Origin: Pelagomonas calceolata
Lineage: Eukaryota; Sar; Pelagophyceae; Pelagomonadales; Pelagomonadaceae
NCBI GenBank assembly: GCA_918797485.1
Contig: CAKKNE010000004.1
Span: 1,984,001-2,048,000, forward strand
DNA: 64,000 nt
Direction of reading: 5' to 3'
How positions within the stretch are numbered: position 1 is the stretch's first letter; every line of letters begins with the position of its first letter. The translations under genes and the position numbers were made by a program. Below the pieces are notes generated by a model that had not been told where the DNA came from, did not search any database, and was given only the letters and a program-made list of their open reading frames with translations. This document shows positions 1,761 to 63,170 of the stretch, piece after piece.

Positions 1761-1783
1761 CTAGTGTGTTTACAGTCCGCTAG
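1761..1783 (+). promoter_or_regulatory. CTAG inverted-repeat promoter element, copy 1
   Basis: 23 bp starting CTAGTGTG and ending CCGCTAG, preceded by GATTG. It is the only structure I see in the 351-base divergent spacer 1622-1972, about 140 bases from the glycosyltransferase start and 190 from the isomerase start. Confidence 0.65.
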
Positions 1784-1972
1784 CTCGCCTTCGCCTCTTC
1801 TCATTTGCCCGGTCGGCGTTGAGGCACGTTTTAAAGCTCAAACGTCGAAGCGTCTAAGGCAGGTCGCCAGCCCAAGGCCCTCGCGGCATCCGTGTTAACG
1901 CACTTGTCTCCCAAAGGCCCCGAGTCCACACCACAAAAAGAACGCCACCAGACGCGACAAACAACGCTGCCG

Positions 1973-2860
1973 ATGCTCCGCCAGACCTGCTCCGTCCTGC
2001 TGCGGCGCCGCACTTCTGCGCTGCGAGCCTTCGCCACGAAACCGGACCTGACGCTCGTCGAGGATCGGGACGGCATTCGGACGATCACGATGAACAACCC
2101 GGCCAAGTACAACGGCTGGACGGACCCCATGCTCCGGAGCTGGATGGGCCGCTTCGCCGATGCCGCGACCGACGACAGCGTCAAGGCCCTGATCCTGACG
2201 GGCAGCGGCAAGTACTACTGCGCCGGTGTTGATCTAAGTGGCACGATAAAACCCATGTGGCCGAAGCAGCTGCACGACCAGATCTACACCTTCAACAAAC
2301 GGGTGTTTGACACGTTCCTCGAGTTCCCGAAACCCTTGTGTGTTGCGGTAAACGGGCCGGCCATCGGCGCGTCCGTGACGACGGCGACGCTCGCCGACTG
2401 CGTCGTGGCGTCGACGAACGCGACCTTTTCCACGCCCTTCGCGCGGCTCGGGGTCCCGCCGGAAGGCTGCTCCAGCGTCCACTTCGCGCGGCTCATGGGC
2501 CCCGAGAACGCGATGAGGATGTTGGGGATGGACGGCTGGGCGCCCACCGCCAAAGAGGCGGCGGCCGTGGGGCTCATCAACGAATGCGTGTCTTCAGAAG
2601 ATCTGTTGGACGCGGCGCATGCCCAGCTCCGGTCGCGGCTCGCCAACGCGGACTACGTGAAGAACCACCGGGGGTACGCGGACACGGCCGAGTTGATAAA
2701 AGTGAACGACCGCGAGTCGAAGGACCTCGCGGACGCGTTCCTGGCCGTCCCCTTCCTGCGGGCCCAGGCCGACTTCCTCGCGTCGAAGGGCAAGAAGAAG
2801 GAGGCCCTCGTCTTCGAGGCGCTCGTCGCGACGCGGCCCGCGTGGAGCCTGTTGCTGTGA
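1973..2860 (+). CDS. Enoyl-CoA hydratase/isomerase family, probably mitochondrial Δ3,Δ2-enoyl-CoA isomerase
   Basis: 295 residues. The Arg/Ser-rich leader (MLRQTCSVLLRRRTSALRAFATK) looks like a mitochondrial presequence; this ATG was chosen over the in-frame CTG-type start at 1892 for that reason. Crotonase-fold motifs follow: SGKYYCAGVDL (oxyanion hole) and GPAIGASVTTATLADCVVA. GVPPEGCSS holds a Glu where the isomerases of the ECI/PECI branch have their single catalytic acid. The C-terminus (WSLLL) is not a peroxisomal SKL signal. Likely role: shifting double bonds of unsaturated fatty acyl-CoA in β-oxidation. A hydratase function cannot be ruled out. Confidence 0.8.
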   Translation: MLRQTCSVLLRRRTSALRAFATKPDLTLVEDRDGIRTITMNNPAKYNGWTDPMLRSWMGRFADAATDDSVKALILTGSGKYYCAGVDLSGTIKPMWPKQLHDQIYTFNKRVFDTFLEFPKPLCVAVNGPAIGASVTTATLADCVVASTNATFSTPFARLGVPPEGCSSVHFARLMGPENAMRMLGMDGWAPTAKEAAAVGLINECVSSEDLLDAAHAQLRSRLANADYVKNHRGYADTAELIKVNDRESKDLADAFLAVPFLRAQADFLASKGKKKEALVFEALVATRPAWSLLL

Positions 2861-2876
2861 TTTAGAACTGGTCTTT

Positions 2877-3062
2877 TTATTCCTCTAGTTCGTTCGCCTG
2901 CTCGTCCAGCATCTGGAGCATTTCCGCCGCGTCGGCCATACTTTCACCCGACAGGCACTTGAACTTGCAACCGTCTACGACTTTCTGCAGCCAATACAGC
3001 GCCCGGATGGGGTCCTTCGGCAGGCCATGGAAGCCCGAGTAAAATCCCCTGCCGAGTTTCAT
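2877..3062 (-). pseudogene. Sel1/TPR-like C-terminal fragment
   Basis: 61 residues from an ATG, but the same frame reads on upstream through HGFGSDLGA (to about 3089), which continues a Sel1-type repeat (A-LG-FY-G--G--KDP-RAL-WL). Only one repeat and a short acidic tail are present, where Sel1 proteins have several repeats, and there are only about 130 bases before the M16 peptidase stop. I read it as the remnant end of a larger gene. It could instead be a genuine small protein. Confidence 0.35.
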
Positions 3063-3216
3063 CGCGCCGAGGTCCGAACCAAAGCCGTGAAAAAGATAAA
3101 AATTGTAAAACCCGTTTTGATGGGTGAGGGACGCCTGAGCCTGACGCGTAATTCGCCTGTGTGAGCTTGCGACATGCTAGAAATTAGTCCACACACACCC
3201 CTACGACGACGAGAGA

Positions 3217-6200: not shown

Positions 6201-6256
6201 CGGCAGCAGGGCGGCTCGTTGGCCCAGCCGGCGCCGGGGACGAGGAGTGAGGCCAT
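3217..6256 (-). CDS. M16 (insulysin-like) zinc metallopeptidase with one apparent frameshift
   Basis: About 1010 residues, insulysin size. The inverted zinc motif HFLEH lies at residues 107-111, with the downstream third ligand in DAEHSKNLNDD. Four M16 half-domains can be followed: N-terminal catalytic, then LRELRIMWPLPF (substrate-facing strand), and a C-terminal half with REQLGYLVSMSYSSARG, a hallmark of the IDE/nardilysin group. Just before the catalytic domain is a Cys-rich patch (CCRDCGE...C). The frame changes once near 5435-5445: upstream the frame ends in LLLAEHFSGIR, downstream it resumes with PTPCEEAPPPLF, and no GT-AG pair spans the point. Single-base indel (assembly or real) is most likely. 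Start set at ATG 6256. It degrades peptides, probably in cytosol or organelle; no clear targeting signal. Confidence 0.85.
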
Positions 6257-6277
6257 GTATGAGCACTGCTGCTGCAA

Positions 6278-6505
6278 GATTGCTGCACTGCCGGCCAGAA
6301 CTCAAACTGCAGGCAACGCTGAGCAATGATTCGAGATATATTTAGTAAATTAGACAGGTTGCGGTTGCGTAGGTCAGTAGGGAAGAGGCAAAAGGGCCGG
6401 CGCCGCTCCGAGGTATAAGGTACCATACCGATACCTTACCCGGCAGCAAAGCTACTACTCTGCTAGCGTTTGAAGGGCTCTAGAGCCTGGCCAGCGCGGT
6501 GCTTG
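6278..6505. other. Upstream region of the M16 gene with GGTACC-type palindromes
   Basis: Non-coding. Positions 6411-6440 hold overlapping GGTATAAGGTACCATACC-type repeats, resembling a cluster near 51300-51330 upstream of the aldolase gene. Both clusters lie roughly 150-190 bases upstream of a start codon, so they may be promoter elements. Confidence 0.3.
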
Positions 6506-6526
6506 CTAGTTTTACAAGGCCACTAG
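6506..6526 (+). promoter_or_regulatory. CTAG inverted-repeat promoter element, copy 2
   Basis: 21 bp, CTAGTTTTAC…GGCCACTAG, preceded by GCTTG. It lies upstream of the M16 gene (about 250 bases from its ATG) and 7 bases beyond the stop of the next gene. Confidence 0.6.
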
Positions 6527-6533
6527 ACAAAAT

Positions 6534-8351
6534 TCACTTATGCACACTATCAACATCCTCCTCCTCGTCGCTGCTCGCGACATCCGACCACCGATCGGTC
6601 TCATCAGGAACAGGCAGAACTGGAAGGGGCGGCGGCGCGGGCTCCGCCTCGGAGACGCTCGCGCCGTAGACTCCGCCGCCGGCCAGCGCCGCGCCGGCCG
6701 CCGCGCCGACGGGGCCCGCGAGGAGCCCGCCGACGGCCGCCCCGGCGACGGCGCCGCCCGAGCACTTGGCCGTCCAGGCCCACCAGTCGTAGTGCTCCGT
6801 CGCCTGCTCGGTGACCCAGTCCTGGCAGCCGTACTCGCGCCAGAGTTTCTGACTGTTCTCGAACACCGCCGCCGCGTCGTACACGACGTCGCGCGACGCC
6901 GCGTTGCCGCTTCCGAGAAGGAGCCGCGCTTCGCCAGCTAAAGCGACCGTCAGCGACAGCGCCGACGCCGCGCCGCCGTCGCCGCCCGCCGCGTAGGCGG
7001 CAGCGCCGGCCGCGGACAGTCGGGCGACGCCGGTGGCGAGCCGCCGGACCCGCGCCGACGTCTGCAGCGTCCGCAGCGACACGCGGCAGGCGCGCGAGTC
7101 GAGGTACGTCGCGAGCTTCCTGAGGTTGTGCCACGCGGCGATCGCGTCCTCGTCGCCTATGATGAGGTCGAGCCCTTCGTCCCTCTCGAGCAACACCAGC
7201 GCGCAGCGGCACTGGTCGGCCTCGCGCGCCGCGGCCGCCGTGCCGGCCTTCGCGGCGCGGCGCGCAGCCGCGCGCGCGTCGGCGGCGGCGTCCTCGCACG
7301 CGCGCGTTCTCTCTGCGCACTCATCTCGGATGAGCCGCAGCCTCATCAAGTCGCGTGCGACCACCGGCGCCAGCGGCGCCGCGACGGCCAACCCCCGGGT
7401 CCAACCCAGCCACGCGAACGCGAGGAGGCCCGGCGCGGCGCCCAGGCCGCGGCAGAGCACGGCGGGCACGTAGCCCGGCGCCGCCGCGTCGGCGAGCTCC
7501 CACGCACGGGCACTCGCCCACTCCGCCGTCTCGTCGGCGTCGAAGTGCTCGTCGACCAACCTTCTCTCCAGCGCCGCCAGCGCCGCGACGCCCGCGCCCG
7601 CCGCGCCGGCGCCGAGCGCCGCGACGGCCTCCAGCACGACCGCCCAGGCGTCGTTCGCCGTCGCCGCGTCGTTGTCCCAGACTTGCGCCACGCGGCCCAA
7701 GAGCGCCGCCCGGAACAGCTGCTCGCGCGACAGATCCTCGAGCGGCGCCGCGGCGATTCTCGACGCCGCGGCGCGGACGGCCGCGCGGCTTTCGTGGATG
7801 GCCCTGCGGCTGACGGCGCCGCCCGCATGCGGCGAGCTCAGGGCCCACCGGAAGACCGCGAGGCCGAGCGCGAGGAGGCCCCGCCGCGGCGCGCCGCCGT
7901 ATAACGCCCACGCCGCGTACGCCACTGCCGGAAGGTCTTCGGCGCCGGTCAGCGCCGCGCCGCCACAGACCGCTGCGATCAAGACCGCGGCGCCGTCGGC
8001 CCGCACGGCCCCGCCGCCGGCCGCGATCGCCCCGGCCTCGGCGAGCGGCGCGGCGGCGTAGAGCAGGAGCGCGCCGCGCCGCAGCGATGCGGGCCGCGCG
8101 AGCGCGTTGCTCGCGTGCAGCACGACCACGGTCGCTATGAGAATGGACGCGACCGTCGCGAATGGCCGCGGGAACGCCGCGGCGACGGCGCACGCGGCCA
8201 GGACCAGCCCGCGCGCGGCCGTCTTCGTCTCGGGCGCGGCCCAGAGGCTGCGCAGCGTCGCCTCGGCGGTCGACGCGACGATGGCGCCCGGGTCGAGCGC
8301 GGCCGTGGTCCGCGGCAGGACGCGGGCTATGGTCATCTCTCCTCCGTTCAT
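6534..8351 (-). CDS. Alanine-rich multi-pass membrane protein, unknown family
   Basis: 605 residues from ATG 8351. I do not recognise the family. An N-terminal half with several hydrophobic segments (GLVLAACAVAAAFP, VASILIATVVVLHAS, RRGALLLYAAAPLAEAGAIAAGG, AVLIAAVCGGAALTG) is followed by Ala/Arg helices. Near the end is a glycine-zipper-like stretch (GAVAGAAVGGLLAGPVGAA) that could insert in a membrane, then a Pro/acidic tail ending SSDEEEDVDSVHK. Codon third positions are strongly GC, as in its neighbours. Long alanine-rich antisense frames overlap it and are shadows. Confidence 0.6.
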   Translation of the reverse strand: MNGGEMTIARVLPRTTAALDPGAIVASTAEATLRSLWAAPETKTAARGLVLAACAVAAAFPRPFATVASILIATVVVLHASNALARPASLRRGALLLYAAAPLAEAGAIAAGGGAVRADGAAVLIAAVCGGAALTGAEDLPAVAYAAWALYGGAPRRGLLALGLAVFRWALSSPHAGGAVSRRAIHESRAAVRAAASRIAAAPLEDLSREQLFRAALLGRVAQVWDNDAATANDAWAVVLEAVAALGAGAAGAGVAALAALERRLVDEHFDADETAEWASARAWELADAAAPGYVPAVLCRGLGAAPGLLAFAWLGWTRGLAVAAPLAPVVARDLMRLRLIRDECAERTRACEDAAADARAAARRAAKAGTAAAAREADQCRCALVLLERDEGLDLIIGDEDAIAAWHNLRKLATYLDSRACRVSLRTLQTSARVRRLATGVARLSAAGAAAYAAGGDGGAASALSLTVALAGEARLLLGSGNAASRDVVYDAAAVFENSQKLWREYGCQDWVTEQATEHYDWWAWTAKCSGGAVAGAAVGGLLAGPVGAAAGAALAGGGVYGASVSEAEPAPPPLPVLPVPDETDRWSDVASSDEEEDVDSVHK

Positions 8352-8473
8352 GGTGGACAGCACAGCTTGCCAAGCCGGTGCAGCGAACGCAGGAGTGCAG
8401 GCACCCTTCGAGCGACGACGGCTGCGCCTACTTCGACACGTACGCCTGCGTTTTGGCCGGCCGAGGCTGCTTG

Positions 8474-8495
8474 CTAGTGTCTAACACGACGCTAG
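8474..8495 (+). promoter_or_regulatory. CTAG inverted-repeat promoter element, copy 3
   Basis: 22 bp, CTAGTGTCTAAC…GACGCTAG, preceded by GCTTG. Found in the 329-base divergent spacer 8352-8680, about 120 bases from one start and 186 from the other. Nothing else is evident there. Confidence 0.7.
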
Positions 8496-8680
8496 CCGAT
8501 TATAACAAAAATTAGAGTCGGAGGCACTGGCAGCGCTTGCGAGTTGAGTCCTCCGCAAAACACGCGTGCAACGCCAAAATTATAGCTGCACCACTGCGTC
8601 TGCGAGCGACGCGCTGCAACGCCCTGCATAAAACAAAACTGAGCGAGCAGCCAGTGGCGCTGCAGCGCGCGGCCGCAGCG

Positions 8681-11930: not shown

Positions 11931-12275
11931 ATGACGGGCCTGCGCCAGAAGATGGAGCAGGTCGAGTCGAAGTTCGAGGAGTGCTACACCATGATGGAGA
12001 ACACGGAGGGCACCGTAAAAGAACTGTGGGGCGCCGCAGAGGAAACGAAGGCGCTCGCGACGTCGCTCATCCGCGAGGCCGTCGAGAAGATGCAGGCCGA
12101 ATTCAAGGAGCGCGACGAGGAGATGGACCACAAGTTCTCGCTCCAGGTCGCCGAGAACAAGCGGCTGCAGGGCCACATGGCGGAGATCCGCAAGGAGAAC
12201 AAGCACCTCTACGCCCAGGTCGTCGAACTCCAAAAGCGGTGCAAGCTGCTCGAGGACGAGGTCTGCGGCGAGTAA
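11931..12275 (+). CDS. Small coiled-coil protein
   Basis: 114 residues, nearly all helical and highly charged. Heptad-like spacing runs from about residue 5 to the end (LRQKMEQVESKFEECY, then KMQAEFKERDEEMDHKF and VVELQKRCKLLEDEV). The start at 11931 follows an A-rich leader and begins the helix; an upstream in-frame extension of 117 codons from GTG is not helical. No signal peptide. Function unknown; size and composition fit a structural or adaptor coiled coil (cytoskeleton, SNARE-like or basal body), which I cannot narrow. Confidence 0.6.
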   Translation: MTGLRQKMEQVESKFEECYTMMENTEGTVKELWGAAEETKALATSLIREAVEKMQAEFKERDEEMDHKFSLQVAENKRLQGHMAEIRKENKHLYAQVVELQKRCKLLEDEVCGE

Positions 12276-12380
12276 GGACTTGGTTGGTGGATGTGAGGCT
12301 GAGGCTAGTTACGTCGCAGGGTTCCCCGTACCCCTCCCGCTCCCCCCGGGCCCACCCGTCCGGCTGGACTAGGACGTTCC

Positions 12381-12399
12381 CTAGTAAGTCTGTCGCTAG
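12381..12399 (+). promoter_or_regulatory. CTAG inverted-repeat promoter element, copy 4 (short)
   Basis: 19 bp, CTAGTAAGTCTGTCGCTAG. It lies 144 bases upstream of the Nepro-like start in a tandem (not divergent) spacer. A pyrimidine-rich stretch (12336-12360) precedes it. Confidence 0.5.
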
Positions 12400-12542
12400 C
12401 ATCACTTGATGTCAAGGCCTTTGCCAAGCGCATGCATGGTTTAAACGTGTAAAACGCAGGGATTGGCAACGTCTTCAACAACACGAGTGCCGAGCGCGAA
12501 AGCCACGTGTTGAGAGCCGCTGGGCACAGCACAGCTGCAGTG

Positions 12543-13171: not shown

Positions 13172-14599
13172 TTAGGCTGCACCCCCGAGGACGTCCTCGG
13201 CGAACGGGTCCAGGTCCGGTGCGAGCGTCGTCACGTAGCGGTTCAGGTAGATCGCCTGCTTCGTCAAAAGGCCGAACTCCGAGGGCAAGACCAGATTGTT
13301 GTTCTCCGAGACGGCGATGACGTCGTTGACGATGGCCGCCGCGTCGTTGGCCTCCGTGGCCTCGATGGCCTTTTTTAAGTCAGAAGCGAAGGCCGCTTCA
13401 TCAAAGACGTCCGCGGCGACGCCCATCTCCCGCAATGCCGACGCGACACCGTTATAATCCCGCGGCTGGGCGTTGAACGCCGCGGCCAGCGCCACGACGC
13501 CGCCGTAGACCTCCGACGGCAGCGTGCCCACGATGCCGAAATCGATGAGGCCCACGCGGCCGTCCTCGAGCAACAACACGTTGCCTCCATGTAAATCGGC
13601 GTGGAAGAAGTCGTGCTCGACGACACTTCGCCCCCAGCACCGGATGACCGTCGCGACGCTCGCCGCAGCTTCGGGCGAGGCCGTCGCGTCCGTCAATCGT
13701 TGACCGTCGAGCCGCGACATCGTGAGGACGTCTTTCGAACATAGCTCGGGGATGGGCGTCGGCACGCAGACTTGCGAGGCGAAGCCCGCCGTCTCGAGGA
13801 AGGCGTCGAAACTCATGAGGGACTCGGCCTCCTTCGTCAGGTCCAACTCCCGTCTCGTCGCGTCGCGCAACTGCGCCGCGACGCTCCTGAGCGAAATTCT
13901 TTTCGTCTCCGGCGCCACGGCCTCGAGCAACCGAGCCGCCCCGTTCAGGAACGCGAGGTCGGCAATCAACGAATCCGCGACGCCGGGTTTAATGACCTTG
14001 ACGACGACGCGCTCCCCGGTACCTCTTAAAGTTGCGGCGTGCACTTGCGCGACGGACGCCGTCGCCAGCGGTTCGCGATCGAAGCTGGCGAAGGTCGTCG
14101 AGAGCCTTCGACCCAGGCTCTGTTCCACGGTCTTCTTGACGACGTGGAAGGGAATCGGCGGCGCGTCGTCCAGACACTTCTCGAACTCGCTCGTCCAGGC
14201 TTCCGGGAACAAAGTAGGCGACGACGCCACGAGCTGGCCGAGCTTCACGAAGGTCGCCCCCAGCTCCTCGAAGAGCTCCCTCGTCAACCGCGGCGCGTCG
14301 GTCGACCCCCGCAAGACCTTGGCCCCGACGTTGCTCAGGGCGCGCGTCGCCTTTAAGCTTCGGCGGAATGCCGCCGTCGGGTCGACATCCGCAGCATCGT
14401 TCTTTATGTCCCTTGCTAAATCCCTCTGCGTCGCGAGCGCGGGCACCTCGAGCGTGGCCGTCGCGCTGCCGGGGATGGGGATCTTCAGCAAAGGCGGTGC
14501 TGTTTCGTCGTCCGTCGTGGCGCGGAGCGGTGCCTGGTTTCGTTGCGTCGGGCCGAGGAATGCGGATGCTATCGGTAGCAGCACGCATGCCAGGCGCAT
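13172..14599 (-). CDS. Plastid ABC1/UbiB (ADCK/ABC1K) atypical kinase
   Basis: 475 residues. The start MRLACVLLPIASAFLGP is a signal peptide with the heterokont ASA-F cleavage motif, followed by a Ser/Thr-rich transit region, so plastid import is expected. UbiB-family marks in order: KLGQLVASSPTLFPEAW (KxGQ), VVVKVIKPG (Lys of the nucleotide site), HADLHGGNVLL (catalytic loop) and LIDFGIVG (metal DFG). The ABC1 kinases of plastids regulate prenyl-lipid (tocopherol, plastoquinone) metabolism in plastoglobules. Starting at 14599 puts the signal peptide at the terminus; a further in-frame ATG at 14620 adds only seven residues. Confidence 0.88.
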   Translation of the reverse strand: MRLACVLLPIASAFLGPTQRNQAPLRATTDDETAPPLLKIPIPGSATATLEVPALATQRDLARDIKNDAADVDPTAAFRRSLKATRALSNVGAKVLRGSTDAPRLTRELFEELGATFVKLGQLVASSPTLFPEAWTSEFEKCLDDAPPIPFHVVKKTVEQSLGRRLSTTFASFDREPLATASVAQVHAATLRGTGERVVVKVIKPGVADSLIADLAFLNGAARLLEAVAPETKRISLRSVAAQLRDATRRELDLTKEAESLMSFDAFLETAGFASQVCVPTPIPELCSKDVLTMSRLDGQRLTDATASPEAAASVATVIRCWGRSVVEHDFFHADLHGGNVLLLEDGRVGLIDFGIVGTLPSEVYGGVVALAAAFNAQPRDYNGVASALREMGVAADVFDEAAFASDLKKAIEATEANDAAAIVNDVIAVSENNNLVLPSEFGLLTKQAIYLNRYVTTLAPDLDPFAEDVLGGAA

Positions 14600-14767
14600 G
14601 ATGCTTTTTAGGCCTTGCACAAGTGCAGCAATCCAAGGCTCTGTGGCCGAGTGATGAGTGATCGCTGCTGCTTTGCGTCGCGTTTCGTGGACAGCTATTG
14701 GCAGCGCGCTGCTGTGGTGCCAGCACGATGAGCTGCACGATGAGCTGGCCTCAAACTACTTTTTGAC

Positions 14768-14790
14768 CTAGTATTTCATTGACATACTAG
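14768..14790 (+). promoter_or_regulatory. CTAG inverted-repeat promoter element, copy 5 (variant)
   Basis: 23 bp, CTAGTATTTC…GACATACTAG. It sits near the middle of the 393-base divergent spacer 14600-14992 between the ABC1 kinase (169 bases) and CSN4 (203 bases). The arms differ from the consensus (TACTAG rather than CGCTAG). Confidence 0.5.
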
Positions 14791-14992
14791 GATTACGAGC
14801 CGAGTCGGCCTGCAGCGGAGCCCTAACAGCCTTCTCCGCGTTCTAGCGGAACGCACGAGTGCAACCCGACAACGACTCGGCAGCGCTGCGCCTTTCCGGG
14901 CCGCAGCGAGGGCGGCCAAGCAGCGAGAGACCCGCGAGACCCGCGAGCGCCAAAGGCAGACAGCGGCGCAGCGACCACAAAAAGAAGCAACC

Positions 14993-16189
14993 ATGGACGC
15001 CCAGCTCCAGCAGATCTCTAGCAAACCAAACTCGGAGCAGCCCGCGGCCTACCAATCATTGATAGACGCCACGGCCTCGAGTCAGGACGCCGCCGGCATG
15101 CGCACGATCCTGGAGCGGCTCCTGTCGGACGCCGTGCCCCAGGCCGCCTCGAGAGCCGCGGCGGCCCACTTCGCCCAGGCCATTCAAGCGAAAATGACCT
15201 CGGACGCGACGACCGACCTGTTGACGTGGTCGCTCGAACAAATAAAACGCCAGGCGCAATCTTTTGAAGCGTGCGACGCAACCCTAAGACAGGCGCTCTT
15301 CTCCCGCCTCGTCGACGCGGGTGATTATAGAGAGGCGGCGTTAGTCTTAGGCGGCACGAACGTCGAGAATAGCGCGAGGCAGTACTCGGCCGCCGAGAAG
15401 GCGACGTTGTACGTCACCGTGGCAGAGACGTTCCTCGAGGAGGACGAGTCCGTGGACGCGGAGGCCTACGTGAGCCGCGCGTCCGGCCTGATGCGGGACG
15501 TGTCTGCATCCGAAAACTGGGCGTTGCATTTGCGGTACCGCGTGACGCTCGCGCGGACCCTGGACGCGCGGCGCAAGTTCCTGGACGCGTCGATGCGCTA
15601 CTACGAATTATCCCGGGCGGACGACGCCAAAATTGATAGAGAGGAGCTCACGACTCTACTGGCCAAGGCCGTCACGTGCGCTTTGTTAGGTAATGCCGGG
15701 CCCCAGCGCTCGAGAATCCTCACTCTCCTCTACAAGGACGAGCGCCTCGACGACTTGGAGAGGAGCGCGGACTTCGCGGGCCACGCGCGCGTGCTCAAGA
15801 GGACGGTCACGGGCCAGCTCGTAAGAACCAGGGACACGTCGCAGTTCATGGCGTCGCTCATGCCGCACCAGACCGCACTACTAAGTGATGGATTGACCAT
15901 CCCGGAAGCGGCGATGATCCAGCACAACTTGGTGGCCGTCGCCCACATCTACTGCAACATCTCCATCGAGCACTGCGCGCAGCTGCTGGACGTGGCGCCG
16001 GGCCGCGTGGAAACGACAGCCGCCAAAATGATCGCCGCGGGGCGCCTCGCCGCGTCATTGGACCAGGTCGACGGCGTCCTCCACTTCCACGCTACTCAAA
16101 ACGCGCTGGACAGCTTCGACGAGTCCATCAAGGCGCTGTGCCTCGGCGTGAACGCGTGCTACGAGCACGCGGAGCAGCTCGCCGCCTAA
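14993..16189 (+). CDS. CSN4: COP9 signalosome subunit 4
   Basis: 398 residues, close to the usual 400 of CSN4. TPR-like helices fill the first half. The segment RRKFLDASMRYYELSR followed by GPQRSRILTLLYKDERL is diagnostic for CSN4, and the PCI/winged-helix domain follows (HQTALLSDGLTIPEAAMIQHNL through YCNISIEHCAQLLDVAPGRVE). The complex removes NEDD8 from cullins and so controls cullin-RING ubiquitin ligases in cytosol and nucleus. The start lies in a good A-rich context (AACCATGG). No intron is needed. Convergent with the PX gene, 18 bases between stops. Confidence 0.92.
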   Translation: MDAQLQQISSKPNSEQPAAYQSLIDATASSQDAAGMRTILERLLSDAVPQAASRAAAAHFAQAIQAKMTSDATTDLLTWSLEQIKRQAQSFEACDATLRQALFSRLVDAGDYREAALVLGGTNVENSARQYSAAEKATLYVTVAETFLEEDESVDAEAYVSRASGLMRDVSASENWALHLRYRVTLARTLDARRKFLDASMRYYELSRADDAKIDREELTTLLAKAVTCALLGNAGPQRSRILTLLYKDERLDDLERSADFAGHARVLKRTVTGQLVRTRDTSQFMASLMPHQTALLSDGLTIPEAAMIQHNLVAVAHIYCNISIEHCAQLLDVAPGRVETTAAKMIAAGRLAASLDQVDGVLHFHATQNALDSFDESIKALCLGVNACYEHAEQLAA

Positions 16190-19077: not shown

Positions 19078-20320
19078 CTACCAGATATCCCCCACCCGGA
19101 ACCCCTCGGGAAACGGGTCGGTCGGTCGACGACGACCTCGGCGCGCGGCGGATCAGGCGCCTCGTGATCGCGGGCACGACGCCCTCGGCCGTCACCCCAA
19201 CGAGCTCCCCGGTAAAAACCGAACCCACGACGGACTCGTGGACGAAGCGCTCGCCTAGATCGAGCTCGCCGCGCGCGTGGAGGAGCGCCATGATCGCACA
19301 CGTGCCGCTCCCGCAGGGGCTCCTATCCAGCATTCCTGAGTAGCCGTTGGACATGACGACCGTGTTCGTCGCGACGGCGCCGCGGCGCCACGGTCCCCGG
19401 AAGGCCATGATATCGGGACCTGGGTAGTCGAAGGTAGGGTGCTGCACGGGGCACTGCGCGCGCGCGGCGGCCTTGACGAGCTCGCCCGCGGCCCGCAGCC
19501 GCGCGCCGTCCCTCGCGTCGATCGCGAGGCCGAGGTCCGCGGCCTGCGGGCACACCTACACCGTCGGCGTACGGCGTCGCGGCGACGGCGTTGAATTCCG
19601 CACCGGTTGGAGCGTCGGCGATGGCGTACCACATGCCTCCGTACGCGACGTCGATGCGCACCTCTGCGGCGGCGAGGCCGATCGCGCGGCACGCGTCCGG
19701 GTCCAGCTGCACGACTTCATCGCGCACGGCGACAAAGGACGGTGGCCCGTCGAAGGTCACGGAGGCACACCGGCCGTCCGCGGCGAGCTCCGTCCGGATC
19801 GGCACCGGCCCGCTCGGCGCCTCCAGGACGAACCGCTCCCGCCGGTCCGCCGGCAACAGGCCGCACTCGACCAGGGCGGTCGCGACGCAGATCGTGTTGT
19901 GGCCCGACATCAGCGGATACACCTTCGCCTGCTCGGCGATGACCTGCGTGGACGACGCCTCACGGGACCGACGGCGCGTCGGACTCGGACGACGACGAAC
20001 GCGGCGTCGGCCTCGTCGAGCGTGGGCGGCACGAGGAAGTCGGCGTTCGCGCACGGGTAGCCCCGCGGCTCGTGGAGCAGCACCTCGCGCCAGCGGTCCA
20101 GCCGCGCCATGACGTCGCGTCGCTTCTCGAACATCGTCGCGCCCCGCACCCGGTCGAAGCCGCCGCCGTCGACGACGACCGTCGCCGGCTCGCCGCCGCA
20201 GTGCAGGTCCACGCATCGCAGGACGTCGCCGCGCCAGAGCCGCTGGGGCAGCGCAAACGCGCTCGCGCGCCGGAGGCCGCGCCGGCGCACTGCCCTCCTA
20301 AGGAATTGCGCGGCTGGCAT
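19078..20320 (-). CDS. Proline racemase / hydroxyproline epimerase-dehydratase family, frame-interrupted
   Basis: Three frames together spell the family: VDLHCGGEPATVV with the N-terminal fold, then MSGHNTICVATALVECG (first catalytic site, Ser in place of Cys), then DRSPCGSGTC (second catalytic Cys), and finally DPFPEGFRVGDIW ending at 19078. Two changes can be explained by tiny GT-AG introns with CGCAG acceptors: 19944-19993 and 19544-19586. A third, near 19110-19150 beside a GACC repeat, cannot. Ser/Cys members include 4-hydroxyproline epimerases and Thr/Cys members are trans-3-hydroxyproline dehydratases, so the reaction is uncertain. Gene with residual assembly indels or a decaying gene. 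Confidence 0.6.
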
Positions 20321-20503
20321 ACAATCGCGTCGATGGCGTAGGCGGTGTGACAGTGCTGCAGCTGGCAGGCTCTCCAGGTCGAGGAGTCGAACACTTTAGG
20401 TCGAGCAGATCGAGCAAGCACTGTCGCTGTTGCAAAATGAACCTATACGAGCAGCACTCGTGCTGTAGAGCTACGAACTACTAGTAGGGCACCGCTGCTT
20501 TTG

Positions 20504-20524
20504 CTAGTGTCTTACGACCGCTAG
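20504..20524 (+). promoter_or_regulatory. CTAG inverted-repeat promoter element, copy 6
   Basis: 21 bp, CTAGTGTCTTACGACCGCTAG-type and closest to consensus, preceded by TTTG. Central in the divergent spacer 20321-20699. Just upstream, 20478-20485 carries a smaller ACTAGT palindrome. Confidence 0.75.
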
Positions 20525-20699
20525 CCGCTGCCGCAACCCGACCCGGGACGGGCTCGCGCTGCGCTGCGCCATAGAAATATCGTGCACATTAATCAAGGAG
20601 CGTCCCTGAGTGCTGCTGAGTGTGCTGCACGCTGCTAGTCAGCTGTACAATTAGGTGGAGCTCGTCGGTGCCCCGCAACACGCCGTCGACCGGAGCCGC

Positions 20700-24539: not shown

Positions 24540-24620
24540 ATCTCTAAGTTCGATTCATTGGGCTGCCCCCGGTTCAGTACGGCGCTGTGCGGCCATTTTA
24601 CGTCCATCATCGAGCGCTTG

Positions 24621-24642
24621 CTAGTGCCTTACCGGCCGCTAG
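24621..24642 (+). promoter_or_regulatory. CTAG inverted-repeat promoter element, copy 7
   Basis: 22 bp, CTAGTGCCTTAC…GCCGCTAG, preceded by GCTTG. It sits almost exactly midway in a 187-base divergent spacer: 82 bases to one start codon and 84 to the other. Confidence 0.75.
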
Positions 24643-24726
24643 GTCCGCGGCAGGATTTTGTGGACAGCCATTGTGGACCGCATTGCTGCGTATACGCTGC
24701 CCCAGCCCCCGATATAGGGTCGTGCC

Positions 24727-26204: not shown

Positions 26205-26225
26205 CTAGCGGCGTAAGGACACTAG
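26205..26225 (-). promoter_or_regulatory. CTAG inverted-repeat promoter element, copy 8 (reversed)
   Basis: 21 bp; on the minus strand CTAGTGTCCTTACGCCGCTAG-type, preceded by GCTTG. 214 bases upstream of borealin. Confidence 0.75.
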
Positions 26226-26706: not shown

Positions 26707-26724
26707 AGGCGTTCGGAAGACACC

Positions 26725-29581: not shown

Positions 29582-29602
29582 CTAGCGTGACATACATACT
29601 AG
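29582..29602 (-). promoter_or_regulatory. CTAG inverted-repeat promoter element, copy 9 (variant, reversed)
   Basis: 21 bp; minus strand CTAGTATGTATG…CACGCTAG. In the 384-base divergent spacer 29383-29766, 200 and 165 bases from the two starts. Nothing else notable there. Confidence 0.6.
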
Positions 29603-32146: not shown

Positions 32147-32168
32147 CTAGCGTTTCGAGACACACTAG
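32147..32168 (-). promoter_or_regulatory. CTAG inverted-repeat promoter element, copy 10 (reversed)
   Basis: 22 bp; minus strand CTAGTGTGTCTC…AACGCTAG. It lies 57 bases from the esterase start and 258 from the next gene, in the 335-base spacer 32091-32425. Confidence 0.7.
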
Positions 32169-34652: not shown

Positions 34653-34672
34653 CTAGTGTCTCAAGCCACTAG
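34653..34672 (+). promoter_or_regulatory. CTAG inverted-repeat promoter element, copy 11
   Basis: 20 bp, CTAGTGTCTCAAGCCACTAG, preceded by GCTTTG. Central in the 471-base divergent spacer 34467-34937; arms are perfectly complementary (CTAGTG/CACTAG). A second GCTTGCT lies at 34640. Confidence 0.75.
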
Positions 34673-38203: not shown

Positions 38204-38223
38204 CTAGCATGTAAGACCACTAG
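38204..38223 (-). promoter_or_regulatory. CTAG inverted-repeat promoter element, copy 12 (reversed)
   Basis: 20 bp; minus strand CTAGTGGTCTTACATGCTAG. It lies 162 bases upstream of RRP9 in the tandem spacer 38043-38369; nothing else seen in that spacer. Confidence 0.65.
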
Positions 38224-40103: not shown

Positions 40104-40392
40104 CGTTATCGGCGGCTCCCGAGGCTGTTACACCACTGGTGCTCGGCCCTGCGCGGCGAGATGCGTTTCGCCGCTGGGCGCTGCTCCTGGCCTATTTGTT
40201 GGCTACCGGGCGAGCGTACCAGGGCGCACGAGGCCTCCGAGGCTTGCAATAATTGGCCCTGCCCCACCTTTATGCCAGCACGGCTTTGCGGCCTCCATGC
40301 CACCAAGGTACCGCCCCTGACGCCTCGCTCGGACGGTTCAAGGAGGCCAGTACGTCTCCTCTCCACATTTCCAACTGCTTTGCGTTTTTCAG

Positions 40393-40412
40393 CTAGCGTC
40401 GATGCCTACTAG
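40393..40412 (-). promoter_or_regulatory. CTAG inverted-repeat promoter element, copy 13 (variant, reversed)
   Basis: 20 bp; minus strand CTAGTAGGCATCGACGCTAG. In the 417-base divergent spacer 40104-40520, 290 bases from the sorting nexin start and about 110 from the proposed Rab2 start. Confidence 0.6.
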
Positions 40413-40520
40413 TAATTTTATGCGGCCGCGCGGCTTCGTCGTCTGAGCCGACGTACGGCACCCTCGAGTCAAGACGTTTGTTTTCATCAGCAGCGATCAC
40501 TCAGTCTAGCGGAACCGAGT

Positions 40521-41323
<803 letters not shown>

Positions 41324-43376: not shown

Positions 43377-43587
43377 CCGTAGAGTGGAGTGGGAGAGTCA
43401 AGCCACGTCGCCGGCAGCTCCGCTTGCTCTCAGGCTGCTCGGAGAGCAGGTTACTCAAACACGAGTCAAGCCACGTCTTCGACCACTGGTCGTCGGCGGC
43501 ACAGCGTCAGAGGTGCCAGAAATGTGTGCCAGGGCAGGTGACGAGCAACGGTACGCCTACGCTGTGAAAAAAATTGTGAGCCTGCTC

Positions 43588-43608
43588 CTAGTGTCTTACT
43601 GACGCTAG
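43588..43608 (+). promoter_or_regulatory. CTAG inverted-repeat promoter element, copy 14
   Basis: 21 bp, CTAGTGTCTTACTGACGCTAG-type. In the divergent spacer 43377-43750, 212 bases from the ThTPase start and 143 from the DUSP start. Confidence 0.75.
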
Positions 43609-43750
43609 TTAACGCGCGGCAGCTTTTGCACGCTCAGCCTCCTTGTGACACCTACTGGCGCTGACTGCGGCCGCACGGTTCCTACAGCTAACCGTCGCTA
43701 GCGTTTTGGCGCAGCCGAACGCCAAAGCAGCTCGCAAAAGGGCCGTAAAA

Positions 43751-44698
43751 ATGAGAGCCGCCGACGCCTACCGCGCCCGCCGCCGCGAGGAGGAGGACTG
43801 CCTCCTCGTCGCGGAGCTGGAGCACCCATTGATCGCGCAGCTCAAGCTGAAGCGCAGCGCGCGCCTCGACGCGACGACCTGGCGCGCGACGGAGAAGGCG
43901 ACCGGCGGGTCTATATCACTCGCAAAACTACGAGAGAGCCCCGGCGACGACACTACTTACATTTCAATCCACCAGCAAAAAGACGGCCGTCACGACTTCG
44001 TGTGTCTTGCCCACGTGTTACGGGGCCAGACGCCGCTCCGCGTCTTCGACGAGGTCGAAGTGAAAAGCAGAGGCCGCCTCTTCTACGCGCGGCCCCGCAA
44101 AACGCAAAGCCTAGCTCACATCGACGCGACGCCCACAACACTCTGGGACTATCCGGAGCTCGCCCCCCACGGCACGTGGACGAACTATAGCGTCGTGCCC
44201 TGGTTGTGTCTCGGGAGGACGGCGGCGGTCATCCTGAGCGATGAAGAAACGCTGTGCCGAGAGCTCCCGGACGAGCGCATCTTCGAGCACTTGCGGCTGG
44301 TCATCAACTGCCACCAGGACCGGCCCGGTCGAGCGTATCGGGCGGGCGCGCCCTGGGTCTCCAATAAGAGTCCGGACGTCGTCGCGCACGCGGTGCACAC
44401 GTGGTACTCGACGGATCGCGAACGGACGAATCAGAAGATCGATAGGATCAACGAGCGCATGTGGGCCACGCTGCAACAGGGCGGCACCGTCGCGATCCAC
44501 TGCCTCGCGGGCATCCATCGGGCCGCGATGATCACGGCGTGCCACTTTTTGTACAGACACCACGTGCTCGGTCACACAAATATACCGTGCGACGAGGCGG
44601 AGATCTATAGGAAGCTCATCTCCGTGCGGCCCCACGTATCTCCCGCCTACCAGGACATTTTGCGAGGCTACAAGGCGCACGTTCTAGGTAACAAGTAA
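43751..44698 (+). CDS. Dual-specificity protein phosphatase-like protein
   Basis: 315 residues from the ATG at 43751 (upstream frame has only a TTG). A basic coiled N-terminus is followed by a region with VVPWLCLGRTAAVILSDEE and LVINCHQDRPGR (where DUSPs have the general-acid loop), then the P-loop AIHCLAGIHRAAMIT, a CX5R site (Cys, then Arg five residues on) typical of dual-specificity and atypical phosphatases, and ends VRPHVSPAYQDIL. The family dephosphorylates Ser/Thr/Tyr or RNA/lipids. Codon use is normal. 10 bases from the convergent ATAD3 stop. Confidence 0.75.
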   Translation: MRAADAYRARRREEEDCLLVAELEHPLIAQLKLKRSARLDATTWRATEKATGGSISLAKLRESPGDDTTYISIHQQKDGRHDFVCLAHVLRGQTPLRVFDEVEVKSRGRLFYARPRKTQSLAHIDATPTTLWDYPELAPHGTWTNYSVVPWLCLGRTAAVILSDEETLCRELPDERIFEHLRLVINCHQDRPGRAYRAGAPWVSNKSPDVVAHAVHTWYSTDRERTNQKIDRINERMWATLQQGGTVAIHCLAGIHRAAMITACHFLYRHHVLGHTNIPCDEAEIYRKLISVRPHVSPAYQDILRGYKAHVLGNK

Positions 44699-47700: not shown

Positions 47701-48293
47701 GCCTTCGCGTCGTCCTCCAATTGTAGCTGGGCCCGTTGGAGCTCCGCTTCGCGCAGCGCGGCGGCCTCGCCCGCCGCCGTCTGGGCCGCGGCCTGGGCCT
47801 CCGCTTCCCGCGCAGATTGAGTATCAGCCTCTGCAGCTTCGTGCGCTCGGGCCGCGGCGTCGGCTTCCGCGGCCGCGCGGTCCGCCGCGGCCTTTTGCGT
47901 GGCGATGCGGTCCGCTTCGGCCGCTGCTGCCGCGTCCGCTGCTGCCTGCTGCTGTGCGGCAGCCTCGGCGGCCGCGCGGTCCGCTGCTGCCGCCTCCGCT
48001 GCTCTGGCGGCTTGGTCCCGCTCGGCTTGCTCCGCCGCAAGGCGCGCCGATTCGTCAGGCTCCGCAGGGGCAGGCTCGGCCTCCGGCTTGGCGGCCTCCG
48101 GCGTGGCGGGTGCCGCGGCGGCGGGCTTCCGGAGCGCCTCGAGGCGCGCGCGGGCGGCCGCGGCCCGCGCCGCCGTCGACGAGGCGCCGCCGCCCGCCCG
48201 GTTCCGGGCCCGCTCGGCCGCGGCGCGGGCGGCGTCGAGGTCGGCCCCCACGGCCTGAAGGGCTGCCAGGAATAGCAGCAGGCGCCGCGCCAT
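44709..48293 (-). CDS. ATAD3-type AAA+ ATPase with an extra N-terminal coiled coil and S74/ICA-like domain
   Basis: 1194 residues, about twice the usual ATAD3 length. Signal-like start MARRLLLFLAALQAVGADL. Residues about 20-380 are an Ala/Glu/Arg coiled coil. Residues about 386-481 resemble the S74/intramolecular-chaperone (ICA) domain of phage tail spikes and MYRF: LLDVISKIPLRVYELE, GVIGEEVEQLVPDAV, and VLFMHGVGAVQRLWEKQEHL (the MYRF counterpart is FMENVGAVKELC). The catalytic Ser-Lys motif is not visible, so self-cleavage is doubtful. A second coiled coil and hydrophobic helices (about 680-800) lead to AAA+: GPPGTGKT near 921, VLVFIDEAEAF, LATNRAEDLDEAV. ATAD3 organises mitochondrial nucleoids and inner-membrane contacts. 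Confidence 0.85.
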   Translation of the reverse strand: MARRLLLFLAALQAVGADLDAARAAAERARNRAGGGASSTAARAAAARARLEALRKPAAAAPATPEAAKPEAEPAPAEPDESARLAAEQAERDQAARAAEAAAADRAAAEAAAQQQAAADAAAAAEADRIATQKAAADRAAAEADAAARAHEAAEADTQSAREAEAQAAAQTAAGEAAALREAELQRAQLQLEDDAKAKAQEALKEREAKAAAIRAKEAQQAQEAAQEAADRAIEQAEATRLRLEEEERAREEALRVQIEREANALVEAEARRLEQAKVQLLEDEKRAAERREADAIERQKAAEAAAASRREASERDAAAAAAKREMREAALAEEAARLAELEEVKRREALLEAEQAQMRLEREEAARARAREQATDKQGGKAPPDIYKDVEDVDTSELLDVISKIPLRVYELEKDTMEGRRRFGVIGEEVEQLVPDAVRVGRRAFSQGPKKPPVFVDDVAIVDDPVLFMHGVGAVQRLWEKQEHLRDTTRFLSHRANETASRFAALDDRLHLEPRELDEERLIEARKDHEKFRENEELLDKEAVNEKKASLQRQKLENATLRVEDAAARDRSKAEDLAARDRHAEKLRLQEQSVRDQEEVRRKTDEALLKQRLEDEVKIEALRKEAELARVKAEEEARAAAKRANEDIHLRAMRAKAAEDRKKVLEAVQLVAQYAGRGAATLLDDPKLLMTLVGAIVALVGGGHFAREAAILTRSLAEAYLGRPRLVRETSRRYFGKSTTALKVVLRLLFYPVFWVGRMPSHMIFLRHRMVDLKLWLVYGCIVAYYSICFMLGEMYQSIKHQGKKLALLIERRKLAKKTRRQLTREDAEFFRDVKKMRSDEYAKACRARAKTHDDERRAVQASRNEIHQKNLAMEREALQRERRKEAAFLDGVVLPDELRQRVLQLAIATRNAKANRAPFRHMLLHGPPGTGKTLVAKRLAKASGLEYALMSGGDVGPLGSDGVTALHTLFRWARTSETGVLVFIDEAEAFLASRSRAKLTEHMRNALNAFLYQTGSPTTSFVLVLATNRAEDLDEAVLDRVDETLYFGLPAFAARDKLVRLYYDVYCASLIERKRHFLKKIWDAVRRAPASLKVTKDVTPALLGEVARDTDDFSGREIEKLFVAVQSAAYGRDGRLDANTITTAVAVKRGEHDRKNAMNAADSTLRSSAVDAAMNSPRANSRDGKQRSPRRR

Positions 48294-48392
48294 CGCGTCA
48301 GGGGTTGGGTCGCATCATCGGTCCGCGTATTACGCACCGCACTGGGCCACGAAGCGAAATGGGCAGCCTGCCGTAACTTTTACCATGGCTTG

Positions 48393-48413
48393 CTAGTGTC
48401 TTTACGCCGCTAG
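48393..48413 (+). promoter_or_regulatory. CTAG inverted-repeat promoter element, copy 15
   Basis: 21 bp, CTAGTGTCTTTACGCCGCTAG-type, preceded by GGCTTG. In the divergent spacer 48294-48617, 100 bases from the ATAD3 start and 205 from MPP10. Confidence 0.75.
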
Positions 48414-48617
48414 TTGTAGAGCAAGGCTGCGGTGCCGCAGACGCCGTCGCTCCCCTATTCCTGCGCATTTGTGCCAGCAGTCGTGTCACTTCTACTGCTA
48501 CTGGTGCTCCGTGCAAGCAGCCGGGCCGCGGGACGCCTCGTCGGGCTGCACACAAGTGCCATCGCTGGGCTGCAGCAGCGCACTCACGCCTGCAGCAGCG
48601 CTAAAAGAGCGCTAAAG

Positions 48618-61304: not shown

Positions 61305-61375
61305 CTTTCTGTATGAGTATCCTGAGAGGGTAGTAATGGGGAAAGGCGGACCAACGCAGATACATATGAAGATCA

Positions 61376-61699
61376 TTACTGCGGCCGCGGGCCCATGTAG
61401 TAGGTGTTGATGGGGATCGGGTCGATTGATTGCGACGAGCCGCCGCGGGACTCGCGCGGCGGCTCGTCGCGGGACTCGCGCGGCGCCGGAGCCCCCGTCG
61501 TCGGCATCGCGTTGTGGACGGTGGTCGGGTGAGGCATGCTCGCGCCCCACCCCGTCGCCTGCCACCCAGGGTGCCGGTAGCCGCTCTCGGCCGGTGACGC
61601 TCTCGGAGTTGTCTGACTCTGCGCGGCCGCGGCGTGGCCGGCGAGCAGGATCACGGCGGCCGTCAGCGCGCGTCCGAGCGGGCGTCGTCGGATCGGCAT
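61376..61699 (-). CDS. Small secreted Pro/Ser-rich protein
   Basis: 107 residues from ATG 61699. Signal peptide MPIRRRPLGRALTAAVILLAGHAAAA; the mature part is low in complexity (repeats of PRESR, DEPPRESR), ends YYMGPRPQ. No cysteines, so probably disordered. An alternative is that this is a 5' part of a larger gene, but the stop is clear and the next gene starts 280 bases away in the same strand direction. Confidence 0.45.
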   Translation of the reverse strand: MPIRRRPLGRALTAAVILLAGHAAAAQSQTTPRASPAESGYRHPGWQATGWGASMPHPTTVHNAMPTTGAPAPRESRDEPPRESRGGSSQSIDPIPINTYYMGPRPQ

Positions 61700-61975
61700 T
61701 GCTGCTCCGCGTCTCCGACAGAGTTGTGAGAGCAAAGTTGCCACAGAGCGATATCTACGCGTTATTCGGATGCGTCGCGTCAGTGCGGTCCAGTGCGGTC
61801 AAATGGACACGCGCACAAAGCTCTAACGTTCAGCGGCGACGTAAAAGCTCGACGAGATATGACATGAACCTCCAAGCCCGAGCCACGATAAAAAAAGGCT
61901 AAGCTGAGCTGACGGACCGCTCCAAAACGCCACAATGCGACGTCCAGCACCACCTTAAGGACTACTAACAAAACC

Positions 61976-62966
61976 TTAGGACGAAGCCTCCGCCGCTCGA
62001 ACCGAAACGAACGGCGCGTCCGCGGCGGCCGACCGTAACGCAGCGAGGATGCGCTGCTGCTGCGCCAGTAGAGCCTTGGAAGCGGGCTCGATCCTCAAGG
62101 CGCGCATGACGTCCTGGGCCGCGGCGCGGTGCTTCCCGAGCGCGTGCCGCGCCGTCGCGCGGCGCTGCAAACTCTTAAAGTGGTCCGGCTCATAAGACAG
62201 GGCCGTGTCGCAGTCCGCCTCGGCGTTGTTGTACTGGTTCTGCTTCAGGTAGGCCATCGCGCGATTCGATAACGCGACGTGGTTCCTTGCTTTCAGTCCC
62301 AGACACAACGAGTAGCTCCGCACGGCGCCCTCGTAGTCGCCTTTGGAAAATTTCTCGTTGCCCAACCGGCGCTGGGCCTCCTCGGGGTTCTCCGGTTCCG
62401 CCAGAGGGCGCGCGTCGGCGGGGACCTGTGTTTGGTTCATTCCAGTCGCGTCCCGAGGCCGCGTCGCGGCGATGGCGTCCGAGGCTGTGTCGCGTCGATG
62501 GCGTCTGGCGCCCCCGTACGCCCTCGCCGCTAACCGACGCGCACTCTCGTCGCGTCGCGTCGATGCCACCTCGACGCGGTCGTCACACAATGATCTTCGG
62601 ACGCCGCATTTGTACCTCCTCGACGACGGTCGTCGCCTCCTCATCAATATCATAGTTGTCCGCGTCGAACTGCTCCCACTTTTTGTAGCCCTTGTCATAC
62701 ACATGGGCGCCCGGCGCTTTTGCTGATTGTTTTCGATGCTGCGCGGCACCCGCATCACTCTTAGCCGCCGAGTTCCGCACGCCCACCCTCATACCGCCGC
62801 GCACGGGCGGCAGGTCCGTGGGCGCCGCGCGGCGCTCCTTGTCTTTTTTCGCGATGTCCCGATTCCAGTCGGCGAACTCGCCCAGGTAGTGCTGTTGTTG
62901 CTGGGCGTCGTTTCTTATTTTGTGCTGCATCTCGAGCATCCTTCGCTGCTGGTCGGCGGGATTCAT
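61976..62966 (-). CDS. RPAP3/SPAG1-like TPR co-chaperone, two exons
   Basis: Exon 1 (62966-62616) gives an N-terminal coiled region matching RPAP3 (QQHYLGEFADWNRDIAKKDKE) and an aromatic acidic end (WEQFDADNYDIDEEATTVVEE). Exon 2 (62425-61976) gives a TPR triplet: AQRRLGNEKFSKGDYEGAVRSYSLCLGLK, ALSNRAMAYLKQNQYNNAEADCDTAL, SLQRRATARHALGKHRAAAQDVMRAL. Joined through intron 62426-62615 (GTACAA … AACACAG, phase 0) they form 266 residues. RPAP3-type TPRs bind the Hsp90/Hsp70 C-terminus in the R2TP complex, which assembles RNA polymerase II and snoRNPs. Exon 2 alone would start at MNQTQ, but exon 1 fits the family better. Confidence 0.72.
62426..62615 (-). other. Predicted intron of the RPAP3-like gene
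   Basis: 190 bases, phase 0, donor GTACAA, acceptor CAAACACAG. On the minus strand it carries ACGCCATCGACGCGACAC and a second, imperfect ACGCCATCGCCGCGAC, the same core as in the PX minisatellite and the introner. Confidence 0.6.
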
Positions 62967-63148
62967 GGCTGCGAGGTCCTGCGAGGTCTTGCGAGGTCTT
63001 TGAGCAGCTAGTGGTTGGCAGGTACGGCGCTGCACGAGGGCTTGGAAGCAGGCCCGTCGAGACGGATGGTGTCCCGATTCACTGCTCTCGCACCAATTCG
63101 ATGCCTTTTGGTCCGTTTTACCGCTTTGCTGAGCAACCCTAGGCATCC

Positions 63149-63170
63149 CTAGTGTGTCACACGACGCTAG
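63149..63170 (+). promoter_or_regulatory. CTAG inverted-repeat promoter element, copy 16
   Basis: 22 bp, CTAGTGTGTCAC…GACGCTAG. Midway in the divergent spacer 62967-63355: 183 bases from the RPAP3-like start and 185 from the Mpv17 start. Confidence 0.75.

Follow-up and report, generated by a model that had tools for sequence, protein, structure and literature searches.

A candidate promoter-organising site: an asymmetric element with inverted CTAG ends in the 5' spacers of Pelagomonas calceolata

Introduction

In yeast, the general regulatory factors Reb1, Abf1 and Rap1 are reported to contribute to nucleosome-depleted regions (PMC11069190). Paired yeast promoters are described as sharing a nucleosome-depleted region and the remodeller RSC as binding A-tract motifs (PMC9481977). 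For Abf1 and Reb1 it has been proposed that they organise nucleosomes and so insulate the paired initiation complexes from each other (PMC7618759). In vertebrates, a promoter motif of the ZNF143 type is described as enriched at bidirectional promoters, and its bound factor as facilitating initiation (PMC11118474). Here we describe an element of 19–23 bp with inverted CTAG ends, present in 16 copies in a 64,000-nucleotide stretch of the genome of Pelagomonas calceolata (contig CAKKNE010000004.1, positions 1,984,001 to 2,048,000; G000:C4:1984001-2048000 in our numbering), which is called the window below.

P. calceolata is a very common ocean alga. In the sequence sampled here, the element is found almost exclusively in spacers that hold the 5' end of at least one gene, generally once per spacer and in either orientation, and we think it probable that it is the site of one putative sequence-specific DNA-binding protein or fixed complex, resembling a general regulatory factor, that organises promoters. 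The likeness drawn here to the yeast Reb1, Abf1 and Rap1 sites is one of placement, at the promoters of many unrelated genes; the Pelagomonas element is longer (about 28 bp and 37 bits), two-armed and asymmetric. The ZNF143-type motif is also long, and its sequence is different. The Pelagomonas element differs from it further in its inverted CTAG arms, and no zinc-finger protein has been linked to the element, none having been searched for.

Another comparison is offered by the introners of pelagophytes, which belong to the same lineage: the distribution of intron lengths in P. calceolata has a peak at about 210 bp, a feature shared with the introners of Aureococcus (PMC9481584). The element differs from these in its length of 19–23 bp and in its position, in spacers that look intergenic. 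The first-pass annotation of the window knew of no report of such an element, and none of a promoter element was found in the literature that we searched, although most subscription papers lie outside that coverage and the result is not proof of absence. The main text of the P. calceolata genome paper (PMC9481584) makes no mention of a promoter or motif, and the same is true of PMC13284251; the one literature match to the letters of the left arm was a paper on diphthamide.

Sequence sample and motif search

The genome scanned consists of 32,445,274 bases in 8 contigs; the RCC100 assembly is described as six nuclear contigs totalling 32.4 Mb, with a plastid and a mitochondrial contig in addition (PMC9481584). 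Positions relative to genes were determined in a 334-kb sample of four arbitrarily placed blocks (84, 100, 100 and 50 kb) on contigs C4, C1, C2 and C3, which includes the window. Coding sequence was mapped by a self-trained Markov model that used no RNA data, and all locations given below rest on this map, which divides the sample into 261 kb of coding and 73 kb of noncoding sequence.

A whole-genome scan with the strict pattern CTAGTG-N7-11-CGCTAG returned 3,922 matches, compared with 25 for the same pattern read backwards. CTAG reversed is GATC, which is about twice as frequent in the sample (1,176 vs 529), so the reversed controls run high. A two-part matrix with a variable gap was then trained on strict matches irrespective of their place, and iterated. 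With a first, stricter matrix the sample gave 59 matches, against 1 in reversed sequence; the final matrix at a score of at least 16 gave 96 raw matches (72 after merging of overlaps), whereas reversed sequence gave 4. This threshold was set once the hit counts had been seen, and the strict count, which uses no matrix, gives the same picture. A rough genome total is about 6,100 copies (3,922 x 72/46, where the 46 include spacings 4–14), or about 6,600 if scaled by the 43 strict copies in the sample.

Position of the element relative to genes

The 72 copies in the sample are distributed very unevenly: 42 are in divergent spacers, 29 in tandem spacers, none in convergent spacers and one in coding sequence, which places 71 of the 72 in 5' spacers. 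The 43 strict copies divide in the same way (26 divergent, 17 tandem, none convergent, none coding). Lowering the matrix cut-off to 9 raises the number to 100 (49 divergent, 34 tandem, 1 convergent, 16 coding), the additions being near noise. In the 270 kb of the sample outside the window, 28 of 42 divergent spacers and none of 40 convergent spacers hold a copy, and 1 of 56 copies is coding.

The first-pass annotation had seen no copy between convergent stops or inside coding sequence. The first of these statements extends, at the cut-off of 16, to the whole sample, in which 0 of 57 convergent spacers, and 0 of the 18 that are at least 150 bp long, hold a copy. The second is true of the strict copies but not of the matrix copies, one of which is coding. 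Because one frame of CTAG contains a stop codon, coding sequence is bound to avoid the element to some extent, an effect that we judge to be worth a factor of a few; the observed numbers are a single copy over 261 kb coding and 71 copies over 73 kb noncoding. The contrast with convergent spacers is unaffected by it. Convergent genes nearly abut in the sample, with a median of 96 bp between mapped coding ends (57 spacers).

A site of this kind might be architectural, an insulator that separates neighbouring transcription units and takes no direct part in initiation. Such a role would be in keeping with nearly one copy per spacer, with the median of 106 bp that lies between the element and the upstream coding end in tandem spacers, and with the long and highly specified motif. 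It would not lead one to expect convergent spacers to be empty. Because they are, the element follows 5' ends and not gene borders generally, and an insulator is in our view an unlikely explanation.

A copy scoring at least 16 is present in 41 of 59 divergent spacers. Tandem gaps of at least 150 bp were divided according to whether the upstream frame ends at the edge of the gap: those with a stop codon at the edge (intergenic-like) hold a copy in 26 of 51 cases, and those with none (intron-like) in 2 of 21. In 26 of the 28 occupied tandem gaps the upstream frame stops at the edge, and the occupied gaps therefore look intergenic rather than intronic. An introner, as a candidate for the element, is disfavoured on the same count. 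The first-pass annotation had taken the element for a specific mark of divergent promoters that fixes bidirectional transcription. The data do not support this, as tandem spacers carry it nearly as often as divergent ones: since the preference for divergent over intergenic-like tandem spacers is only marginal (Fisher p = 0.053), the element is a promoter mark and not a divergence mark. Its share of the sampled 5' spacers lies between roughly one half and two-thirds.

The number of copies per spacer is close to one. Forty divergent spacers have a single copy, one has two (the second without CTAG) and 18 have none. Had promoters been occupied independently of each other, with the frequency seen in tandem spacers, some 15 doubles would be expected (P about 4e-7). 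Two copies share one tandem gap, and one of these lacks the left CTAG.

Orientation is mixed, as had been noted from the window. Copies in divergent spacers are 23 plus and 19 minus, and copies in tandem spacers run along the gene in 19 cases and against it in 10 (p = 0.14, not significant). Measured to the mapped coding start, the median distance is 215 bp in tandem spacers (range 72 to 642 bp) and, on the two sides of divergent spacers, 230 and 205 bp (range 66 to 1,012 bp).

These figures bear on the possibility that the element is a core promoter element, which places the transcription machinery directly, in the manner of a TATA box or initiator, and starts transcription both ways. Of all 7-letter words, the one most enriched in divergent spacers comes from the element; TATAA is less frequent there than in convergent spacers (0.41 vs 1.32 per kb); and the restriction of 71 of 72 copies to 5' spacers is what a core element would give. 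Directional core elements normally keep a fixed distance and direction. Here the distance to the coding start, used as a stand-in, varies widely, the orientation is mixed, and one orthologous copy in a relative is inverted (see below). Furthermore, T on the gene's strand declines gradually from about -160 to the coding start, which fits, as a weak inference, transcription starts downstream of the element. We consider a core element rather unlikely.

An apparent copy-free gap of 41 kb in C2 results from a long coding region: at G000:C2:1500001-1541336, the gene map assigns more than 41 kb of the minus strand to coding sequence, including a single open frame of 30.5 kb that runs up to the edge of the block. 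This is perhaps a giant gene.

The copies in the window

The element is present at all 16 starts given by the first-pass annotation. Although trained without reference to location, the matrix gives each of them a score of at least 16 and returns no further copy at that threshold; weak extra matches have scores of 9–16, near noise. Our own gene map agrees that 13 copies lie in 13 of 17 divergent spacers and three upstream of single genes. The copies are as follows (window coordinates, strand, location, matrix score).

1761..1783, plus strand: element in divergent spacer 1609-1872; score 37.0
6506..6526, plus strand: element in tandem spacer 6247-6544, with minus-strand genes on both sides, and upstream of the gene ending at 6246; score 19.6
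8474..8495, plus strand: element in divergent spacer 8357-8637; score 36.9
12381..12399, plus strand: element in tandem spacer 12273-12539, upstream of the plus-strand gene at 12540; score 16.3
14768..14790, minus strand: element in divergent spacer 14530-15031; score 25.1
20504..20524, plus strand: element in divergent spacer 20283-20681; score 37.6
24621..24642, plus strand: element in divergent spacer 24546-24785; score 34.3
26205..26225, minus strand: element in divergent spacer 25966-26712; score 35.4
29582..29602, minus strand: element in divergent spacer 29386-29777; score 18.6
32147..32168, minus strand: element in divergent spacer 32071-32430; score 30.2
34653..34672, plus strand: element in divergent spacer 34493-35032; score 34.2; the sole match to the earlier consensus within 3 mismatches
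38204..38223, minus strand: element in tandem spacer 37993-38372, upstream of the minus-strand gene 36561-37992; score 22.3
40393..40412, minus strand: element in divergent spacer 40119-40718; score 21.4
43588..43608, plus strand: element in divergent spacer 43357-43758; score 31.2
48393..48413, plus strand: element in divergent spacer 48255-48616, between ATAD3-like and Mpp10 genes (Pfam); score 37.5
63149..63170, plus strand: element in divergent spacer 62992-63395; score 30.9

The genes identified in the window are of ordinary and unrelated kinds. Pfam families were identified in 28 of the 37 window reading frames scanned (cut-offs 1e-3 or 1e-5), and include enoyl-CoA hydratase, ATP-sulfurylase, ATAD3-like ATPase, Mpp10, Ras-like, WD40 and sugar transporter families. 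The element thus recurs in the promoters of many unrelated genes, as the site of a general regulatory factor would.

Two 'short forms' at 54543 and 60343 had been listed beside the element, and are not supported as the same mark. In the sample, pairs of CTAG words 6 and 9 bp apart occur 6 and 4 times, against a background of about 2 per spacing, and divergent spacers hold just one pair of either kind, so that these short spacings show at most a slight excess, and not in divergent spacers particularly.

Rfam, searched at the gathering threshold, found nothing in the window. ARAGORN predicts a 93-base tRNA-Gly at 47773-47865 on the plus strand, opposite the ATAD3-like minus-strand frame, which is probably a false positive.

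Form of the element

The commonest form of the element is 21–22 bp long and reads gcTTG-CTAGTG-TCTTAC-agGc-CGCTAG-Ct, where the favoured flank letters bring the full length to about 28 bp. This replaces the 20-bp consensus of the first-pass annotation, to which only one window copy comes within 3 mismatches. Among the 61 copies with both CTAGs intact, lengths of 22 (27 copies), 21 (18), 20 (8) and 23 (5) predominate, and the motif holds about 37 bits of information, a value slightly inflated by the small sample. The preferred flanks are TTG on the left and CT on the right, with little in common beyond about 5 bp on the left and 2 bp on the right.

Three classes of spacing were scanned genome-wide (0–5, 7–11 and 13–30), and the length of the element is practically confined to 19–23 bp. 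Spacings of 0–5 give 15 matches (reversed control 23) and spacings of 13–30 give 101 (control 86); some of the listed matches in the latter class are a normal copy with an extra arm, or a recurring 28-bp variant.

The arms are unequal (TG on the left, CG on the right) in 44 of 61 copies, and the second commonest arrangement is TA..CG, with 8. Symmetric forms are far rarer than the 3,922 strict TG..CG matches: TG..CA is present at 127 places (control 7), in part belonging to another recurring sequence, and CG..CG at 36 (control 31), which makes them about 30 and 100 times rarer. The element is therefore an asymmetric site with inverted CTAG ends, and the symmetric site for paired subunits that was suggested at first is too simple a description.

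The arm variants also bear on whether the element acts as RNA, that is, as a hairpin in the transcript serving as a 5' leader structure, terminator or processing signal. On one strand only, the arms can form a 6-bp stem with one G-U pair, as the first-pass annotation stated, and over 61 copies the mean folding energy is -8.65 for that strand, -6.23 for the other and -2.58 for shuffled sequence. A selected stem should, however, be retained by compensatory change, of which there is no sign: the forms that keep or better the stem are the two symmetric ones, 30 to 100 times rarer, and TA..CG breaks a pair. Both strands occur relative to the gene, and the inverted orthologous copy points the same way. 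The earlier preference for a DNA site over an RNA hairpin is thus supported, and we consider a hairpin highly unlikely.

The element is accompanied by A/T tracts, as expected of the site of a general regulatory factor. Within 40 bp of the copies there are 36 A/T runs of at least 5, of which the left-arm side has 16 and the right-arm side 20. The number expected from places drawn at random in the same spacers is 10.7 +/- 3.1. When the places are held inside the spacers, for which 70 of the 72 copies could be used, it is 11.6 +/- 3.2, with none of 2,000 draws reaching 36.

Comparison with a relative

The strong form of the element was searched for in other sequence collections. An exact search of viral_contigs gave no match, and a search of genome_contigs gave seven matching stretches (L036-L042). 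In five of these (L036, L037, L039, L040 and L041) the match to Pelagomonas DNA covers the whole of the stretch or a part of it; L038 is from the same bin as L036 and was outside the Pelagomonas comparison, and L042 is a Candidatus Palibaumannia record whose match may be due to chance. Pelagomonas-like contigs, some of which match partly, are thus present in bins labelled as prokaryotic (Spirochaeta MED672, and others that carry the labels ERR599032 and ERR599052).

The MED672 contigs are 82–94% identical to RCC100 over long aligned stretches, and possibly come from another species. The bin contains 9 strict copies, 5 of which, at loci that may not all be promoters, were compared with the matching stretch of RCC100. 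A copy is kept at four of the five: two in place, one displaced and one inverted. This demonstrates retention but not an unbiased rate, because the contigs were found through their elements.

At L039:4291 the copy is kept in place with 19 of 20 bases, in an alignment (86% identical) that ends 3 bases beyond the element. At L039:2199 it is also in place, with one inserted and one changed base, next to a left stretch that is 73% identical; directly after the element MED672 has extra sequence of about 160 bp, and the alignment continues beyond it. At L036:7907 both genomes have a copy, identical at 21 of 22 bases but displaced, being about 17 bp from the aligned coding stretch in one and 74 bp in the other. 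At L039:5353 the RCC100 copy is inverted and of another subtype, between flanks that are 79% and 80% identical; its distance to the conserved left flank is 192 bp in RCC100 and 214 bp in MED672, and to the right flank 517 and 174 bp. At L039:462, no counterpart was found in the 450 bp of RCC100 examined.

The element might itself be a very small transposon, or the end of one, spread by copying. There are thousands of similar copies with inverted ends, and at some loci a separate dispersed repeat of about 156 bp, or its end word, adjoins the element. This repeat ends in CACTAGTCCTAGCACCGTAACA, lies at L039:299-455 and elsewhere, and is present in both RCC100 and MED672; its 19-base end word has 201 occurrences genome-wide, and a degenerate copy of that word is at window 38243-38262. 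At two MED672 loci the matched part of the repeat starts 7 and 27 bp from the right end of the element. Against a mobile origin, in 46 strict copies conservation ends about 5 bp to the left and 2 bp to the right, and no target duplication is evident by eye. The 144 flanks of the 72 copies yield only 13 cross matches, six of them between neighbouring copies in one spacer, which speaks against the copies being ends of a longer repeat. Taken with the location of 71 of 72 copies in 5' spacers, this makes a mobile origin of the element highly improbable.

Proposed function

On the basis of these observations, we favour a site for a factor like the general regulatory factors, because the element is present about once per 5' spacer, in either orientation, is flanked by A/T tracts, is absent at this threshold from the convergent spacers of the sample and is mostly retained in a relative. 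The putative factor would bind the single copy in a 5' spacer, whichever way it points, beside the A/T tracts. Once bound, it would keep the promoter region free of nucleosomes, and would separate or launch transcription to its left and right. Both genes of a divergent pair would be served by one copy, and in a tandem spacer the copy would sit between the end of the upstream gene and the start of the next. Protein binding, nucleosome depletion and the effect on transcription are all deduced here from DNA sequence.

A number of observations weigh against this reading. No copy was found at the cut-off of 16 in 18 of the 59 divergent spacers or in 25 of the 51 intergenic-like tandem gaps, and the bias toward the gene strand in tandem spacers leaves room for some polarity. 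Other CTAG words within 120 bp of the element are about four times as frequent on the left-arm side as on the right (42 and 11 in the sample). The A/T contrast is smaller when element-less divergent spacers are the reference, with 0.22 runs per site at the centres of these 18 spacers and 0.51 beside copies. The information content, at about 37 bits, is far above the 13 bits or so estimated to be enough to find about 6,000 places, and a simple factor site would not need it; a spacing that may vary from 7 to 11 bases is unusual for a rigid dimer. Retention at L039:4291 is by itself weak evidence of selection, because the surrounding stretch is already 86% identical, and at L039:462 the copy lacks a counterpart. 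Finally, yeast factors of this class are reported to restrict divergent noncoding transcription (PMC9481977), and not to promote two-way initiation.

With one dominant mark of this kind, promoters would be easier to locate from sequence, genetic tools would gain a handle, and the element would lead to its factor by pull-down. It would provide an independent example of the way in which gene beginnings are defined in a compact genome whose 3' ends nearly abut, and it opens to testing the evolutionary question of how a single site has come to serve about half of the promoters in a genome.

A bolder form of the proposal, which we put forward tentatively as somewhat less probable than its opposite, is that one lineage-specific protein reads the two-armed site of about 28 bp some 6,000 times, as the master promoter organiser in Pelagomonas, acting once per promoter region and shared by divergent genes, and that GGGCAGCC may mark an alternative class. 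If this is true, a promoter system run by one factor on such a scale would represent a novel way of defining promoters across a genome.

This second word, GGCAGCC / GGGCAGCC, is also enriched in the divergent spacers of the sample. It occurs in 14 of the 18 divergent spacers that lack the CTAG element and in 20 of the 41 that have it (p = 0.048), and marks a possible second promoter class. Its density is also higher in the element-less divergent spacers (p = 0.0008, with occurrences treated as independent).

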